Source of the DNA: Phycisphaerae bacterium
Lineage (GTDB): Bacteria; Planctomycetota; Phycisphaerae; Phycisphaerales; SM1A02
Reading direction: 5' to 3'
DNA length: 64,000 bases
Assembly (NCBI GenBank): GCA_002711415.1
Contig: PARI01000032.1
Coordinates: 22,861 to 86,860, forward strand
The notes below the pieces were generated by a model, which made no database searches, had not been told where the DNA came from, and worked only from the letters and a program-made list of their open reading frames with translations. A program made the position numbers and the translations under genes. This document shows positions 13,813-47,434 of this stretch, one piece after another; within the stretch, counting starts at the first letter, position 1; every line of letters begins with the position of its first letter.

Positions 13813-16668
13813 ATGACCAAAATGTCCGCCAACTCCGACCAGGTTGTATCCCACAAGTACACGGCATCGCTCGCCGCCGAGATCGAGTTGAAGTGGCAGT
13901 CCCACTGGGAGGACGACAAGTCCTTCAGGGCGCTTAATCCAGGCGACCCCGGATTCTCGCCCGAGATGCCGAAGTTCTACTGTCTCGACATGTTTCCCTA
14001 TCCATCGGGAGAGGGTCTGCACGTTGGTCATCCGGAGGGGTACACCGGCAGCGATATCATCTCCAGGTTCAAGCTGATGAAGGGGTGCAACGTGCTGCAC
14101 CCGATGGGATTCGATGCCTTCGGTCTGCCCGCTGAACAGTACGCCGTCGCGACCAACGTCCATCCCGCCGTGACGACCGCCAAGGCCACCGAGGTCTTCA
14201 GGTCCCAGTTGAAGAGGTTCGGTTTCGCCTACGACTGGAGTCGGGAGTTCTCGACCACCGATCCGGACTACTACCGCTGGACCCAGTGGATCTGGCTCAA
14301 GGCCTATGACTCTTGGTTCGATCAGGAACTCCAGAAGGCCAGGCCGATCAGTGAACTGGTCGATGGACTCGATTCCGGCGACATCGTGATCGATGAAGGT
14401 CCGGGCTGGTCCGAGATGAATCAGCAGCAGAGGCGAGAATACGTCGATTCGCGCAGGCTGGCCTACCTTGGCGAACAGGTCGTCAACTGGTGCCCCGCCC
14501 TTGGCACGGTCCTGGCCAACGAGGAGGTCATCGATGGTCGCAGTGAGCGAGGCGGCCATCCGGTCAGGCGAATGTCATTGCGACAGTGGATGTTCAGGAT
14601 CCGGGAGTATGCCGACCGCCTGCTCGAGGACCTGTCGTTGATCGACTGGCCGGAATCCACACGGCAGATGCAGACCGAGTGGATCGGCAGGAGCGAGGGC
14701 GGCGAGCTGAACTTCACCCTTGATTCCCCGGTCCGGGACATCGAGTCACTTGAGGTGTTCACGACGCGACCCGACACCGTGTTCGGTGCGACGTACATGG
14801 TCGTGGCGCCCGAGCATCCACTTGTCGAGGCACTGCTCGAAGTGGACGGCGCGACTGATCGATTCCGTGAGTACGTCATGCAGGCCAGGAACAGGTCGGA
14901 CGTGGATCGCATGATCGAGTCGAGGGAGAAGACCGGGGTCGACACGGGCGTCTTCGCCATCAACCCGGCGACCGGTCAGCCGATTCCGGTGTTCGTCGCC
15001 GACTATGTCCTGATGGGATATGGAACCGGTGCGATCATGGCGGTGCCTGCCCATGATGCGCGGGATCACGAGTTCGCCAGGACGTTCGGCCTGGACATCA
15101 CGCGAGTCGTCGATGGTCCCGGCGATGTCCAGGAGCAGGCGTACACGGAACCAGGCGTCGCCATGAACTCGTCCAACGACGACATCTCGCTGGACGGACT
15201 CGGGACCGATGAGGCCTGCACGAGGATGCTCGACTGGTTCGAACGCAACGGGAAGGGGGCCAGGCGGGTCAACTACCGGCTTCGTGACTGGTTGTTCAGT
15301 CGCCAGCGGTACTGGGGTGAGCCGTTCCCGATCGTCTTCGACGAGGATGGGAACCACTACCCGGTCAGCGAGGAACACCTCCCCGTCCTCCTTCCCGAGA
15401 TGGATGACTTCAAGCCGGTCGAGTCCGACACCCCGATGCCGCCACTGGGCCGTGCAACCGACTGGGTCGCGACCACGGCAGGAGAGGCTGGAGTGAGTCC
15501 GGATCTTCTTCCGCCGGACACGCCGGTCCGTCGTGAGACCAATACGATGCCCAACTGGGCAGGATCCTGCTGGTACTACCTCAGGTACATCGATCCGCAC
15601 AACCAGGAACGACTCGTCGATCCCGAGGCCGAGCGATACTGGATGCTGTCCAACCGGTCCGGTGACGGACCGTCGCGCACGACGGCGGCCGGCGAGGACT
15701 TCGACGCCGACCAGTTCCATGTCGGTGGAGTCGATCTCTATGTCGGTGGGGCCGAGCATGCGGTCCTGCACCTGCTCTACGCCCGATTCTGGCACAAGAT
15801 CCTCTTCGATCGTGGATACGTCAGCACGCCGGAGCCCGTCGGCAGGCTCTTCCACCAGGGCATGATCCTCGCTTTCGCCTACCAGCGTGATGACAAGTCG
15901 CTGGTTCCGGTCGACCAGGTCCGGCAGGACGAGGACGAGTCATGGGTGGAGATCGAGACCGGTCGTGAAGTCAGCCAGGTCGTCGCGAAGATGAGCAAGT
16001 CGCTCAGGAATGTTGTCAATCCCGATGACGTCATCAACGAGTACGGTGTGGACACCCTGCGCCTGTATCTGATGTACATGGGACCGCTTGATGCCACGAA
16101 GCCATGGAACACCCGGGACATCAAGGGCATCCATCGGTTCCTGCAACGGGTCTGGAGGCTCGCGATCGACGAGGAGTCCGGGGCGATCGTCACGATCGAG
16201 CAGGCTGATGAACAGGTCGAGCGCATGCTGCATGCGACCATCAAGAAGGTCGATGGCGACATACCGAAGCTGGCATTCAACACCGCGATCGCATCCATGA
16301 TCGAACTGGTCAACAAGGCCACCGGCCCTGGGATGACCTCCGACCAGTTGTCCCGCTTTACGCGAGTGCTGGCGCCGTTCGCTCCACACCTCGCAGAGGA
16401 GATCTGGAGCCGCATCGGTGAGACCGGTTGCATTTCACACGCGGAATTCCCGTCGTGGGATGAAACGATGCTGGCCAGTGACCAGGTCGAGATTCCCATC
16501 CAGGTCAAGGGGAAGATCAAGGCCCGGATCCTGGTCGCCTCCGATGCCGACCAGGAGACTCTGGAGCGACTCGCCCTCGAGAACGAGCAGATCATCGCGA
16601 TACTCGACGGGAACCAGCCACGGAAGGTCATTGTCGTTCCTGGTCGAATGATCAACATCGTCCCATGA
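13813..16668 (+). CDS. leuS: leucine--tRNA ligase
   Basis: This 951-residue class I aminoacyl-tRNA synthetase charges tRNA-Leu. The HIGH-type motif is HVGHPEG near residue 72 and the KMSKS motif is AKMSKSLRNVVNPDD near residue 726. An editing CP1 domain with TTRPDTVFGATYMVV is near residue 316, and an anticodon-binding C-terminus follows. The protein is longer than E. coli LeuS (860), mainly through insertions between the CP1 domain and KMSKS. ATG codons at 13813 and 13822 are both possible starts. The stop overlaps the next small gene in an ATGA. Confidence 0.96.
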   Translation: MTKMSANSDQVVSHKYTASLAAEIELKWQSHWEDDKSFRALNPGDPGFSPEMPKFYCLDMFPYPSGEGLHVGHPEGYTGSDIISRFKLMKGCNVLHPMGFDAFGLPAEQYAVATNVHPAVTTAKATEVFRSQLKRFGFAYDWSREFSTTDPDYYRWTQWIWLKAYDSWFDQELQKARPISELVDGLDSGDIVIDEGPGWSEMNQQQRREYVDSRRLAYLGEQVVNWCPALGTVLANEEVIDGRSERGGHPVRRMSLRQWMFRIREYADRLLEDLSLIDWPESTRQMQTEWIGRSEGGELNFTLDSPVRDIESLEVFTTRPDTVFGATYMVVAPEHPLVEALLEVDGATDRFREYVMQARNRSDVDRMIESREKTGVDTGVFAINPATGQPIPVFVADYVLMGYGTGAIMAVPAHDARDHEFARTFGLDITRVVDGPGDVQEQAYTEPGVAMNSSNDDISLDGLGTDEACTRMLDWFERNGKGARRVNYRLRDWLFSRQRYWGEPFPIVFDEDGNHYPVSEEHLPVLLPEMDDFKPVESDTPMPPLGRATDWVATTAGEAGVSPDLLPPDTPVRRETNTMPNWAGSCWYYLRYIDPHNQERLVDPEAERYWMLSNRSGDGPSRTTAAGEDFDADQFHVGGVDLYVGGAEHAVLHLLYARFWHKILFDRGYVSTPEPVGRLFHQGMILAFAYQRDDKSLVPVDQVRQDEDESWVEIETGREVSQVVAKMSKSLRNVVNPDDVINEYGVDTLRLYLMYMGPLDATKPWNTRDIKGIHRFLQRVWRLAIDEESGAIVTIEQADEQVERMLHATIKKVDGDIPKLAFNTAIASMIELVNKATGPGMTSDQLSRFTRVLAPFAPHLAEEIWSRIGETGCISHAEFPSWDETMLASDQVEIPIQVKGKIKARILVASDADQETLERLALENEQIIAILDGNQPRKVIVVPGRMINIVP

Positions 16669-41764: not shown

Positions 41765-43627
41765 ATGCAAGAACAGCCATCTCTTCTCACCAGGATATGC
41801 ATCGCATCACTGCTGCTGCTTCCACTGGCAATCGTCCCGGACGCCCTGGGGCAGCTCAGGATCAGCAGCTACAACATCGCCCATTTCAACGGTGACCAGG
41901 ATGCGTTCCGGCACGTGCTTGAAGCACTTCACTCCGATGACATCATCGGGTTCTCGCAGCCGTGTGACATCATGATCTTCCAGGAGGTTCGCGAGGAGAA
42001 CATCGTCGATCTCCAGGCGAACATCGATGCAGCCGCGCCGCGTGGAATCGTGTACACGATGGCCACGTTCACATCGGGAGGCGGCGAGGACTTCGCCGGG
42101 GGCGGACAGGCATACTTCTACCGATCCGATCGCATCGCCGAGATCCCCACGAGCCACCTGGACATCTCCACGGGGGCGAACAGGGACACTGATCGATGGC
42201 TCTTCAGGATGCTGGCCTATTCATCCACCGATGCATACTTCTTCATCTACAGCTCCCACCTCAAGGCCGGTACCGGTTCCTCCAACGAGGCCGATCGGAA
42301 CGATGGCGTGAACCTGGTGAGGAACAATGCGGACGCCCTTCCGGCTGGAAGCAACATCATCTACGTCGGGGACATGAACTTCTATTCCAACAACGAGGAC
42401 GGATACCAGGCCTTTATCGCAGCCGGCGGGCAGGGCCAGGCGATCGATCCCTATGGAACAGGCTCCTGGGGCGGTTCATCCAACGCCATCAAGCACACGC
42501 AGTCGCCTCGAGACGTGAGCGGTGGAGGACTGATTGGCGGTGGATGTGATGATCGGTTCGATTTCCACATGCCCAACATCAAGATGTTCGACGGCAACGG
42601 ACTGTCCATGATCGATGGATCCTGTAGAGCCGTCGGCAACGATGGGGTGCATTACGACGACGCGATCAATGACGGTACGAACACATATCTGTCCAACACT
42701 GCGGAATCCAACGCCCTCGCCGACGCGCTGTTCCAGGCAAGCGACCATCTTCCGGTACTCGTCGAGTACCAGGTTCCTGCCGTGATGACGGCGTTTGCAC
42801 CCTCGGATTTCGGCCGCGTGATCGTCGGGGCCGAGCACTTCGTCGATGTCTACGTCAAGAACATCGCCGAGCACGTGGATCCGATCGGTGTCGACGAGCT
42901 CGAGTTCACCGCCACGGGCCAGGACGGCATCACGGGCAGCCTGTCGTCCACGGCGCCACTGGACCCCGATTTCGTCATCGTCCAACTTCCGGTGGACACG
43001 TCGGCCTCGGCGCTCGTCAACGGCACCGTCCAGCTTCAGGCGACGAGCGAAGCCACGCAGAATTCGGAATGGTCGCTCTCGGTGGCTGGCGAGGTGCTTG
43101 ATCACGCGGTCCCGTCGTTCTCCGGCAAGCGGGAAATCACGATGCTTGAATCCGTGATCTCCATCGAGCCAGGTGATCTGGGGCTGTTCAAGATCCCAAT
43201 CCACAACTTCCAGTATGACATGCTCCAGGCGGAACTCGATGTCATCTCGATCGAAGGACTCGCTGGCTTCTTCTACTCGGCGGCTCCCTTGCCGACCGGC
43301 ATCGACGATTCGCCCGGGACACTCCAGATCGGTTTCGATTCCGACGGGCTTCCAGACGGCGAGTACTCGATCACCGTTGACGTGAACGTGTCCGATGAGC
43401 CGCTGCCCGGTGCCGGGCAGGGCCAACTGCAACTGGACCTGGTCGTCAACGTCGGGTCCGCCGGATGTCCGTTCGACCTTGATTCGAGCGGGGTTGTCGA
43501 TGGAGCGGATCTCGCGTTGTTCCTCGGCCAGTGGAACCAGGATGGCTCGGCCGACTTCAGTGGCAACGGTGTCGTTGATGGCGAGGATCTGGCGATGCTC
43601 CTCGGTGCGTGGGGTTCGGGTTGCTGA
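41765..43627 (+). CDS. secreted endonuclease/exonuclease/phosphatase-like protein with dockerin-like tail
   Basis: This 620-residue protein has a signal peptide ([16 protein letters not shown], cleavage near residue 29). An endonuclease/exonuclease/phosphatase fold follows: [13 protein letters not shown], then [12 protein letters not shown] with the catalytic Glu, [10 protein letters not shown] and [10 protein letters not shown] with the terminal Asp-His pair. A beta-sandwich region (about 345-560) comes next, and then two calcium-loop repeats, [20 protein letters not shown] and [20 protein letters not shown], at the C-terminus. It probably cleaves nucleic acid or phosphodiesters outside the cell. 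The following gene overlaps its stop. Confidence 0.8.
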
Positions 43628-44478
43628 TGAACAGCGCCAGCATGAAAATCCGTCTGCTCGCGATGATGTTCTCGATGACGGCCATCAATAATCTGGCTGC
43701 TGACACCGTGACGCTTACCTCCGATCGTGACAACACGCTCATCCAGCCACAGGAGGCCGGCGATGCGCTGAGCCTCGGTTCGGCGTTCAACATGTATGCG
43801 GGCAGGGTCGGATCCAATGCCGGCCAGACCCTGCGTCGGGGACTCCTGCGATTCGACATCGCTGCCGTGGTTCCATCCGGAGCCACGATCCAGTCCGTGC
43901 AGCTGACCCTTCACATGTCACAGACGGTCACCGGGTACCAGTCCATCAACCTTCATCGCATGAACGCGGACTGGGGCGAGGAGGACTCGTTCAGTTTCGG
44001 TGGAGGTGGCGCACCAGCCGAGGTCGGCGATGCCACGTGGACTCATGCGTTCTGGCCGAGGATCCCATGGCAGCAGGACGGTGGTGATTTCCAGACAGAG
44101 GTGTCCGGAACCAAGCTCGTCGGAAGTGCTGGTTACTACACGTGGGACAGTGCCGACATGATGGTCTGTGATGTCCAGGCCTGGCTGGATGATCCTTCAG
44201 CCAACCACGGCTGGATGGTGCGTGGCAACGAGACGACCTCGCAGGCCGTCAAGAGGTTCGATACACGAGAGGCATCGGAACCTTTCCGGCCGGAACTGGT
44301 CATCGAGTATGAACTCGAACAACTGAAGGCCGACCTGAACTCCGACGGCCAGGTCAATGGCATCGATCTCGGCATCCTCCTCGCACTGTGGGGACAGCGA
44401 GGGGTCGCCGACCTCGACGGAAGTGGTATTGTTGACGGCATCGACCTTGGTATTCTCCTCGCCGAGTGGACGATCTGA
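43627..44478 (+). CDS. secreted DNRLRE-type protein with dockerin-like tail
   Basis: This 283-residue protein has an N-terminal signal ([20 protein letters not shown]; its ATG at 43642 is an alternative start). Its domain follows the DNRLRE pattern: DNTLIQPQ, then [20 protein letters not shown] and ERFDTREA-like ([20 protein letters not shown]). Two calcium-loop repeats close the protein, [20 protein letters not shown] and [20 protein letters not shown]. It is coupled to the nuclease-like gene by a TGATG overlap, and both carry the same type of tail. Confidence 0.78.
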
Positions 44479-44611: not shown

Positions 44612-46591
44612 TCACTGGAGCGTTCCAGTGTTCTCCAGCATCGACCACAGCTGGAGTGATCCGGGCTCGACATCACCCCGTTCAATGGCCAGCGAGATCG
44701 TGAAGAAGGCGTTCATCTCCTGGCCCGTCAGCACCTGGAGCGTACTCACCATGAACAGCGCATCGGCGTTGCCGGGTGACTGGTGGGCCTCGATCGTCCA
44801 GTCATTGAGGATCTCGACCAGGATCGGATCGAGCTGTCGATGCTGGTTGACTGCAAGCAGTATCCGGGGATCTGCTGACACAGCTTGCCGGACCAGGGAC
44901 ACGCCTGATCCGAGTGGTCCACTTGCAGCGAGCGCGATGCCCGCACCGAGTCGGCTCTCGAACTCGTCCGGGAATGCCGTGTCCAGCTGCATGAACTGGT
45001 TCAATGCATCGTCAAAGCGGCGATCTGCAAGGGAGGACCATGCCATCGCTGGTGTCGGAAGCGTGGGGGGCTGTTCGATCCGGACCACCGGTGCCGGGGT
45101 CCAGGTGGTGTTCCAGACGAGGCATGTGCTTCGAAACGGGGAATACCAGCTCCAGTCGCACGGTCGTGCACATGGATACCAGCATGACCTCCACCAGTTC
45201 CACTGGAACGGGCCGCACCATCGCCAGCACGTGTCCGCGTTGAGACTGATGAAGAATCCGAACGATCCTCCGCAGTAGACCAGGTCGTATCCGCCTCCGC
45301 ACCATGCCCAGCTCGGAAGCCATCCGGGTGTCCAGCAGGGAGACCAGCATGGCTCATACCATGGGTTGCCCGGCACGTGCCCGGCGGTTCCACCACAGTA
45401 GTTGTAGTGCTCGTTGTACTGGTTGACCTCGATGATGATCGTCTCGGGCTGTGGACACGGCTCGTCATGACCAACTGGATCGATGTCATGGGTCGATGGT
45501 TCCCCCGGAACCTCGGGCTCATCATGGTCGTCGGGTTCGACCGGATCGCCGGAAGGGTCCTCCGACTCCGGTCCCGGCCCGTGGCCTTCCAGCCCGCTGG
45601 TCATCGAGCCTGGATCCGGCTTCGGCCCATTGGCTGGATCGGCGGCATGGTTCCTCTGCTTGCTCCCGTCCAGATCGATCTCCGGGACCGCGGTGCCGAT
45701 GTGCTTGTCAGCTTCCGGCAGTGGTTTCTTCGTCGTATCCGACCCCGGCCGGGGAGTCTTCTTCCCGGATCCATCCTTCACCGGATCGATATCCTGCCTC
45801 TTGCTCTGCTTGTCGTTGTTTGTCACCTCGTTCTTCGTCAACTGGTCGAATTCATCCCGGCTCATCTTGAACGATTCCCTGGCCTTCTTGATCGCATCGA
45901 CCTGATCACCGGCCTGCCCTGGTGCACTGGAGCCATGGATCCTCTTCAACGCCTGTTCCCGGAGTGATTGCTCGATGCTGCGAGCACGCTGTTCACGAGC
46001 TCGCTGCTCCGAGAGCTGCTTCTGTCTTCTCTGCAGTTCCCTGGCTCGTTCAATCAATCTTCGATGGCTGCTGGAACTGCTCGGGACGTTTTCGCGGGTC
46101 GGCGGAGTGATCCGCCCCGGGGACTGCCGGGAAGGTGTCCGTGAACTTCCGGCACTTGACGGCTTCCTGGTCGGTGTGGAGGGAGTCCTTGTCCTGGTCG
46201 GTTGCCTTGGTGCTGGTCGAGGACTTGCCGCCGGCTTGGTGGGTTGGGTGGGTCTCGGGGGTGGGGCGGCCTTCCGGCTTGGGGTGGGCTTGCTCGGCCT
46301 GCTCGCTGGAGGAGGGCTGGCTGCAGGTCTTGATCGCGATGGTGGCGTGGCCTTCCTTGATGGAGCCGCCTTCCTGGGAGGAGTGGCCTTGCTGGGACTG
46401 CTCGCCGGTGGGGCCGCCTTCGGTTGTCTCGGTGTCGCGGATCGACCGGCCTTGCCGGAGGACTTCTGCTGACCGAGCGCATCATTGGAAGCAACGGCAA
46501 GGAACATGATCACCAGGAGTGACAGGATCCGGATCGGGGTGCCCGTGATCATGAGGCGATGTTGCCGTGTGGTCGGGTTCCAGTGGTTCAT
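44612..46591 (-). CDS. secreted protein with Pro/Lys-rich, Trp/Cys-rich and TPR-like regions
   Basis: This 659-residue protein has a signal peptide (IRILSLLVIMFLAVASNDALG, cleavage near residue 40). Residues about 45-165 are low-complexity Pro/Ala/Ser/Lys/Arg, like a histone-H1 tail. A charged helical region and an acidic Pro/Asp/Glu-rich linker follow. Next come about 109 residues with 16 Trp and 11 Cys, in patterns such as WYEPCWSPCWTPGW and W-W-R-S-C-W-Y-P-C. The C-terminal 150 residues look TPR-like. The ATG at 46591 has AGGAGA 6 bases upstream; an ATG 8 codons earlier lacks this. No family is recognised; a cell-surface structural role is plausible. The 133 bases to the convergent neighbour hold no gene. 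Confidence 0.75.
   Translation of the reverse strand: MNHWNPTTRQHRLMITGTPIRILSLLVIMFLAVASNDALGQQKSSGKAGRSATPRQPKAAPPASSPSKATPPRKAAPSRKATPPSRSRPAASPPPASRPSKPTPSRKAAPPPRPTQPTKPAASPRPAPRQPTRTRTPSTPTRKPSSAGSSRTPSRQSPGRITPPTRENVPSSSSSHRRLIERARELQRRQKQLSEQRAREQRARSIEQSLREQALKRIHGSSAPGQAGDQVDAIKKARESFKMSRDEFDQLTKNEVTNNDKQSKRQDIDPVKDGSGKKTPRPGSDTTKKPLPEADKHIGTAVPEIDLDGSKQRNHAADPANGPKPDPGSMTSGLEGHGPGPESEDPSGDPVEPDDHDEPEVPGEPSTHDIDPVGHDEPCPQPETIIIEVNQYNEHYNYCGGTAGHVPGNPWYEPCWSPCWTPGWLPSWAWCGGGYDLVYCGGSFGFFISLNADTCWRWCGPFQWNWWRSCWYPCARPCDWSWYSPFRSTCLVWNTTWTPAPVVRIEQPPTLPTPAMAWSSLADRRFDDALNQFMQLDTAFPDEFESRLGAGIALAASGPLGSGVSLVRQAVSADPRILLAVNQHRQLDPILVEILNDWTIEAHQSPGNADALFMVSTLQVLTGQEMNAFFTISLAIERGDVEPGSLQLWSMLENTGTLQ
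44613..44630 (-). terminator. hairpin at the end of the Trp/Cys-rich protein gene
   Basis: CACTGGA and TCCAGTG pair around a 4-base loop, overlapping the stop codon of the gene. No T-run follows, so termination is not certain. Confidence 0.3.
46096..46456 (-). repeat. low-complexity Pro/Ala/Ser/Lys/Arg coding repeat
   Basis: Within the Trp/Cys-rich protein gene, this segment encodes degenerate short repeats such as TPPRKAAPSRKATPPSR and PPPRPTQPTKPAA. The DNA is correspondingly repetitive and strongly biased, with long open frames on the opposite strand as a by-product. Confidence 0.75.
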
Positions 46592-46678: not shown

Positions 46679-47326
46679 TCAGGGTGAATCCGTGTTCTCA
46701 TCACCCCCGGAGGTGGGGCTTGGCCGGTTCTCGATGTAACACCCGATCGGTTCAGTCCTTGCATTGGCCACCGGGCGACCCGCAGCGATCGCGAGGATCG
46801 CATCATGAAGTGAACGATCGCCCGGTTCAGCCCGCCTCATGCCCAGGCCCGTGTAGCGATCATCGATCCTGCCCGAGTAGACCACGTCCCCCTCGTTCGT
46901 GACGATGAACGCCTCCGGCGTCACCTGGGCATTCACGGCCTCGACCAGCCGGTGGTGGGGGTCCAGGATCACGGGCGTGGTGATGTTGAAGTCGCGGACA
47001 TGGCCCCGTACCCCCTTTGCCTGGAGGGTCGCATCAGGGTAGACCATGAACATTCTCATGTTCGCGTTCGAGGCCAGTTGGTCCAACCTCGCCAGTTCAG
47101 GCTGGTAGAAGTTGGCGATCGGACACTCCGGGGCGATGAACACGAGGACCATCGCCTTGACGCCAGGTTCACCAAGTGGGGTGCATCGGCCCTGATCCAG
47201 GGTGTGCAGTGGCGGGTTGGCTTGTAGGTCAATCGGGGAGTCCGGCTGGATGCTCGCCCCCGTGCCCTGGCATCCGCTCAGGCCTGCGATCGAACAGGCG
47301 AGGATGATGGGGGCGAGTCGCTTCAT
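46679..47326 (-). CDS. redoxin-domain lipoprotein
   Basis: This 215-residue protein has a lipoprotein signal with lipobox L-S-G-C (Cys17). The domain follows the planctomycete redoxin pattern: VLVFIAPECPIANFYQPELA with a single Cys in the active-site loop, F-M-V-Y-P-D, TPEAFIVTNEGDVVYSGRID, and a C-terminal TEPIGCYI. It is a thioredoxin-like fold on the outer side of the inner membrane, perhaps an electron or thiol carrier. I chose the ATG at 47326 because AAGGA lies 5 bases upstream and the signal peptide begins there. It starts 34 bases after tRNA-Cys on the same strand. Confidence 0.8.
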   Translation of the reverse strand: MKRLAPIILACSIAGLSGCQGTGASIQPDSPIDLQANPPLHTLDQGRCTPLGEPGVKAMVLVFIAPECPIANFYQPELARLDQLASNANMRMFMVYPDATLQAKGVRGHVRDFNITTPVILDPHHRLVEAVNAQVTPEAFIVTNEGDVVYSGRIDDRYTGLGMRRAEPGDRSLHDAILAIAAGRPVANARTEPIGCYIENRPSPTSGGDENTDSP

Positions 47327-47360: not shown

Positions 47361-47434
47361 AGGCCGAGGTGGGATTCGAACCCACGAATCACGGATTTGC
47401 AATCCGTTCCCTTAGTCCACTTGGGTACTCGGCC
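47361..47434 (-). tRNA. tRNA-Cys (anticodon GCA)
   Basis: On the minus strand the 74-base sequence folds as a cloverleaf: acceptor GGCCGAG with CTCGGCC and discriminator U, anticodon stem ACGGA/TCCGT with loop TTGCAAA giving GCA, and T-arm GTGGG-TTCGAAT-CCCAC. Discriminator U and anticodon GCA identify tRNA-Cys. The 3' CCA is not encoded. It is followed after 34 bases by the redoxin lipoprotein gene on the same strand. Confidence 0.95.

Follow-up and report, generated by a model that had tools for sequence, protein, structure and literature searches.

An exported planctomycete protein that joins a proline- and lysine-rich tail to a stretch crowded with tryptophan and cysteine raises two questions, namely whether its middle part is a domain in its own right and what such a chain might do outside the cytoplasm. 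The protein is encoded by a minus-strand open reading frame of 659 amino acids with an ATG start, running from position 46591 to 44612 of a window of 64,000 nucleotides, by which we mean the whole stretch of DNA analysed here. A preliminary description made from the letters alone had guessed at a cross-linked surface or extracellular matrix protein. We therefore followed the protein, its relatives and its neighbouring genes through the order Phycisphaerales.

Architecture of the protein

The protein of this uncultured planctomycete is predicted from its sequence to be exported, with a likely signal cleavage near ALG/Q in the translation, and a hydrophobic stretch precedes the tail also in those relatives whose N-terminus is uncut. 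Both the Pro/Ala/Ser/Lys/Arg tail and the acidic linker that had been claimed are found in the translation (Table 1). The 302 residues between signal peptide and aromatic segment contain 16% Pro, 20% Lys plus Arg and 10% Asp plus Glu, giving a net charge of +28. Calling this tail H1-like is apt for its composition and fails as a statement of kinship, as a linker-histone match is absent and scans of the protein with Pfam and NCBIfam returned no histone family. A weak match to TIGR04526 over the low-complexity tail was rejected as compositional, and a sequence search of the PDB reached only the tail and the charged stretch, with weak matches at E above 0.6. Promoter and terminator scans stayed at chance level.

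Table 1. Features of the gene and its two plus-strand neighbours in window coordinates.
Feature	Residues	Window position	Strand	Basis
Sec-type signal peptide and start codon, hydrophobic ILSLLVIMFLAVA	1-40	46472..46591	-	translation
Pro/Ser/Ala/Lys/Arg-rich disordered tail	41-175	46067..46471	-	composition
Arg/Glu/Gln-rich charged stretch, probably helical	176-222	45926..46066	-	translation, inference
Acidic Asp/Glu/Pro/Gly linker	300-382	45446..45694	-	translation
Trp/Cys segment (16 Trp, 11 Cys)	383-501	45089..45445	-	sequence
PxWx tetrad run PCWS PCWT PGWL PSWA	414-431	45299..45352	-	sequence
Alternating strand-like motif SFGFFISL	443-450	45242..45265	-	sequence
C-terminal TPR domain, conserved folded core	510-659	44615..45064	-	AlphaFold and profile
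Secreted DNRLRE/CBM96-like protein with dockerin pair, convergent neighbour		43609..44478	+	Pfam/NCBIfam scans
Secreted endonuclease/exonuclease/phosphatase-fold protein, GC-type dockerin above cut-off		41765..43627	+	Pfam/NCBIfam scans

For residues 514-658 AlphaFold (15 sequences) predicted nine helices at a pLDDT of about 95, and disorder was predicted everywhere outside this TPR domain, in the window protein as well as in a modelled relative. The structural neighbours in the PDB are TPR proteins, found at VIA-align Z scores of 8.6-10.0, which are middling for helical repeats by the tool's own scale. The TPR-like end noticed earlier is thereby borne out by a clear structure prediction and also by the hits of its homologues to several TPR models, with E values as low as 2.9e-12; the protein's own match to TPR_16 is weak (13.8 bits against a cut-off of 32.7, E 0.08). 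Against profile A1, which covers the TPR end in 14 rows with the window protein among them, it scores 175.8 bits, its shuffled versions reaching at most 9.7. The TPR domain is the conserved folded part of the protein, and the models predict a generic TPR fold for it.

Distribution across the Phycisphaerales

A search for related loci with the window protein alone as query gave no match. Using its last 280 residues as query, matches were obtained in 18 of the 41 genomes searched, the window's own counted. Profile A1 detected 53 places at an E value of 1.7e-14 or better within the same family. Across Phycisphaerales, 61 of the 251 genomes sampled have a match with E no higher than 1e-12, and a few strong matches lie elsewhere in the phylum; weaker matches, probably ordinary TPR proteins, were left uncounted. 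The close relatives come mostly from metagenome assemblies of Phycisphaerales and Planctomycetota.

Almost all long members, from many genera, show the order signal peptide, tail, aromatic/Cys segment and TPR domain, and the window protein shares this layout, its TPR end matching A1. Since the homologues keep the same order of parts, we regard the frame as genuine; a spurious frame, which the preliminary description had tied to a lack of relatives, is ruled out by homologues in many genera with identical part order. A tail of 80 amino acids or more is measurable in 38 members, and its net charge is positive in every one (+7 to +74), W/Y/F/H/C making up 23-46% of the segment that follows. Short members of about 310-340 amino acids from other families of the order (L016, L019 and L020) have the TPR end without a tail and with few aromatic residues. 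Where the aromatic segment would be expected, ahead of the TPR domain, the relative at locus L011 (genome G039), which belongs to a different family of the order, has three Cys/His-rich repeats resembling one another (CRPDHRCHRHNCRYC, CRPGHRCGYSHCHFC and CRSDHRCGLVTCHTC). Neither the libraries searched nor the open-access literature yielded a published description of a family with such a combination; within those searches the combination is undescribed so far, and each of its elements is already of a known kind.

The Trp/Cys segment and its evolution

The 16 Trp and 11 Cys reported for about 109 residues (45098-45424, residues 390-498) were counted again and confirmed, all of them falling within residues 399-497, and the strings W-x-P-C-W (as WSPCW) and C-W-Y-P-C are both present. 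A near-identical PxWx string (ACWSPCWSPGWSSCWTPGW) occurs in genus g15 at locus L068. No characterised domain emerged for the segment when its sequence was searched against Pfam, NCBIfam and the PDB, so that a hit of the kind which the preliminary description had named as refuting did not occur. Modelled alone, the segment is predicted to be unfolded (pLDDT about 33, AlphaFold, 15 sequences), and in a modelled g49 relative it reaches a pLDDT of 22-35; as these values are so low, a fold search of the segment is not meaningful. The class of strand-like motifs represented by SFGFFISL is found in 47 of 57 members (shuffles: mean 13.5, maximum 22) with a pattern written after the sequences had been inspected, and the motif forms a low-confidence hairpin in the model of the g49 relative. 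CX3C spacings are mildly in excess, being seen four times in the window segment against 0.8 expected (p 0.006) and four times in the independent genus g11 (p 0.012), both values being uncorrected for the several spacings tried; none occur in g37, g15 and g6, and the excess is unclear outside the window and g11.

The make-up of the segment depends on the clade: most members of the window's clade have a segment rich in Trp and Cys with hardly any His, those of the sister clades one rich in Tyr and His. In a tree of the TPR columns alone the window protein sits on a long branch and groups with Trp/Cys members of g11, g37, g15, g45, g16 and g49 in a clade of 23 rows, whose support of 91/97 lies below the starred level. 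The Trp/Cys state, defined by thresholds set after the data were seen, requires 2 changes on this tree, while 300 label shuffles require at least 13 (mean 17.8). Within g49, the mean identity over 78 pairs is 36.5% in the tail, 61.9% in the aromatic segment and 61.4% in the TPR domain, the segment thus being constrained about as much as the folded domain.

Between genera the segment fades almost to composition. With profile A2, built on g16, g45 and g49, the window segment is equalled or bettered by 70 of 1000 shuffles. In pairwise comparison of the window segment, none of 300 shuffles is as good against L068 and L094 (both g15), one against L065 (g16), five against L078 (g49), and 13 and 12 against L010 and L072, respectively. 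One well-defined, family-wide Trp/Cys domain was rejected, as A2 finds only g45 and g49 in the class-wide sample and misses the window's own gene. Of the proposed Trp/Cys-rich domain there remains a segment that is fast-evolving, of clade-dependent make-up and not stable across the family. Because it is conserved within genera and fades between them, the segment is locally constrained and quickly drifting, with what appears to be weak residual homology.

Neighbouring genes

The two dockerin-tailed secreted neighbours noticed earlier were recovered, one with a dockerin above the cut-off and the other, which carries a DNRLRE domain besides, with a dockerin that is below threshold and recognisable. 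The DNRLRE gene is convergent also in g16, g45 and g49, where it lies 8-460 bp from the end of the family gene and is 42-49% identical, and it is codirectional in g11; taken over all these neighbours the identity is 42-51%. The gene for the endonuclease/exonuclease/phosphatase-fold dockerin protein is the next but one in g16, g45 and g49 and stands adjacent, at 93 bp, in g6. As peptidyl-prolyl isomerases and GatB are syntenic too, part of this conservation is shared gene order. An obligatory partnership with the DNRLRE protein is not supported, as its relatives also occur in many genomes that lack this gene (86 of the 181 family genomes have one) and are unlinked in g15 and g37. Since such relatives are common without the family, a functional link is only suggested, and the linkage to the neighbour genes may be plain synteny. 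Elsewhere in the genome (G000:C32:5139-6176, minus strand, locus L144) a 1369-aa open frame matches cohesin twice, once over the cut-off and once weakly, so that the dockerins may have a partner, for which this frame is a possible candidate.

About 88 bp upstream of the start lies a codirectional, lipoprotein-like gene of thioredoxin fold (Redoxin/AhpC-TSA-like; 46679-47326, minus strand). A tRNA-Cys gene, the genome's only full match to this tRNA, shares the strand of the Cys-rich gene and precedes it by about 770 bp (47361-47434, minus strand). A tRNA-Cys near the homologue is also present in those syntenic loci of g6, g16, g45 and g49 that have enough upstream sequence; in some of them, namely L065, L069 and L082, it precedes the homologue by a few hundred bp in the same orientation. 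None was seen in the Tyr/His-clade loci examined. At L076 (g49), two tRNA-Cys genes on opposite strands (15073-15146, plus; 15561-15635, minus) lie within 600 bp of each other upstream of the homologue, the second with an unusual anticodon position. The proximity of tRNA-Cys may be plain synteny.

Proposed function and alternatives

We tentatively propose that the protein is an exported structural cohesion protein of the envelope or extracellular matrix, a reading to which we give somewhat less than even chances. The cross-linked surface or matrix protein of the preliminary description is still the most likely reading, its location and cross-linking being putative. After Sec export, the net-positive Pro/Lys/Arg tail would touch acidic polymers such as surface glycans, LPS or extracellular DNA and also the aromatic side chains of adjacent copies. 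As a sticker region, the Trp/Cys segment would associate by stacking of aromatic rings, by cation-pi contacts and by a short beta pairing at SFGFFISL, and disulfides could lock it in an oxidising compartment, while the TPR domain would dock the chain onto an envelope partner protein. Export, the disordered positive tail, the constrained aromatic segment and the TPR fold are read from sequence and prediction; binding partners, disulfides and the cohesion itself are, like the location, what we infer beyond them.

In favour of cohesion we count the recurrent layout, the positive tail accompanied by an aromatic segment, the constraint within g49, the strand motif, the predicted disorder and the conserved dockerin neighbours. 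Protein envelopes of other planctomycetes have long been described as Pro- and Cys-rich and disulfide-stabilised (PMC3035269), and the Cys-rich YTV proteins linked to this were found in cell-wall preparations and reported only from Planctomycetales (PMC8567305); these envelopes, together with YTV not being found in 121 genomes of this order, are counted on the same side. Against cohesion we count the patchy Cys, the short members, the occurrence of the neighbours without the family, and the substrate dependence of Lys/aromatic adhesion, for which cohesion is documented, yet adhesion varies with the substrate and is weak on some inorganic surfaces (PMC7403305). Cys is high mainly in the Trp/Cys clade, and the L004 segment contains none. 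As several sister-clade members are almost Cys-free, disulfide cross-linking cannot be the shared mechanism.

The short members just mentioned also bear on a different reading, in which the TPR domain does the work, scaffolding or assisting assembly in the periplasm or at the outer membrane by binding a client or an envelope machine, and tail and aromatics do no more than anchor it to peptidoglycan or to lipids of the outer membrane. That the TPR domain alone is conserved order-wide, also in L016, L019 and L020 without tail and aromatics, and that its structural neighbours are generic TPR scaffolds, would fit such a role. It leaves unexplained the conservation of the aromatic segment within a genus, which is as strong as that of the TPR domain, and the consistency with which positive tail and aromatic segment go together, and we consider this role possible, if rather doubtful.

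Two further explanations start from the chemistry of the disordered parts. Cys, His and Trp in CX3C groups might serve as ligands of copper, iron or zinc or undergo thiol cycling, the switch between Cys/Trp and His/Tyr then tracking the metal used. The CX3C excess in two genera, the His-rich sister clades, the Cys/His repeats of L011 and the thioredoxin-fold gene just upstream are in line with a metal or redox protein, but the clade has no fixed metal-site spacing (CX3C being absent in g37, g15 and g6), no known metal-binding domain is matched in Pfam or NCBIfam, and the most enriched residue, Trp, is seldom a metal binder, which makes this explanation distinctly improbable. Still less probable in our view is a nucleic-acid-binding matrix protein, whose H1-like tail would hold extracellular DNA under tuning by the neighbouring secreted nuclease-fold protein. 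The net-positive Pro/Ala/Lys/Arg tail and the conservation of the endonuclease/exonuclease/phosphatase-fold neighbour in g1, g6, g16, g45 and g49 point towards it; however, the neighbour's fold also includes phosphatases and lipid-active enzymes, the neighbour is absent at the g12, g3, g21 and g44 loci examined, and a histone-family match is absent.

Taking the structural cohesion protein as our preferred reading, one may speculate that Phycisphaerales stabilise their envelope by a lineage-specific sticker protein that replaces the YTV wall proteins of other planctomycetes, forming a condensed layer held by disulfides and cation-pi contacts whose chemistry switches from clade to clade between Trp/Cys and Tyr/His, with charge layout and TPR anchor kept fixed. 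We regard this wider scenario as improbable in its full form. For Phycisphaerales, the family supplies a tangible candidate for a structural protein of envelope or matrix, with which the question becomes testable. It also offers a natural series in which the aromatic and thiol make-up of one segment varies by clade and the remaining plan is kept, which is useful for studying the evolution of disordered sticky segments.

Comparison with known systems

Like generic TPR scaffolds (Pfam TPR clan; MamA and consensus TPR in the PDB), the protein is predicted to form helical TPR hairpins in its C-terminal 150 residues; none of these scaffolds was found with a tail and an aromatic/Cys segment, and the matches of the window protein to TPR models are weak. 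To linker histone H1 with its Lys/Pro/Ala tails, the resemblance lies in tail composition only, as the window protein is predicted to be exported, is without a histone domain, carries its tail N-terminal to the other modules and diverges fast there (36.5% within g49).

The YTV-domain wall proteins of Planctomycetales (PF07639) are likewise exported, Cys-rich and planctomycete, and represent a plausible functional analogue. The YTV repeat is absent from the window protein in the Pfam scan, and none was found in 121 Phycisphaerales genomes including the window's, the same search being positive in 9 of the 149 genomes covered across the phylum. By analogy only, mussel foot proteins and similar cationic-aromatic adhesives also combine Lys/Arg, aromatics and Cys in disordered chains; there is no homology to them, and in the protein described here the cationic and the aromatic residues are set in separate blocks and joined to a folded TPR domain.
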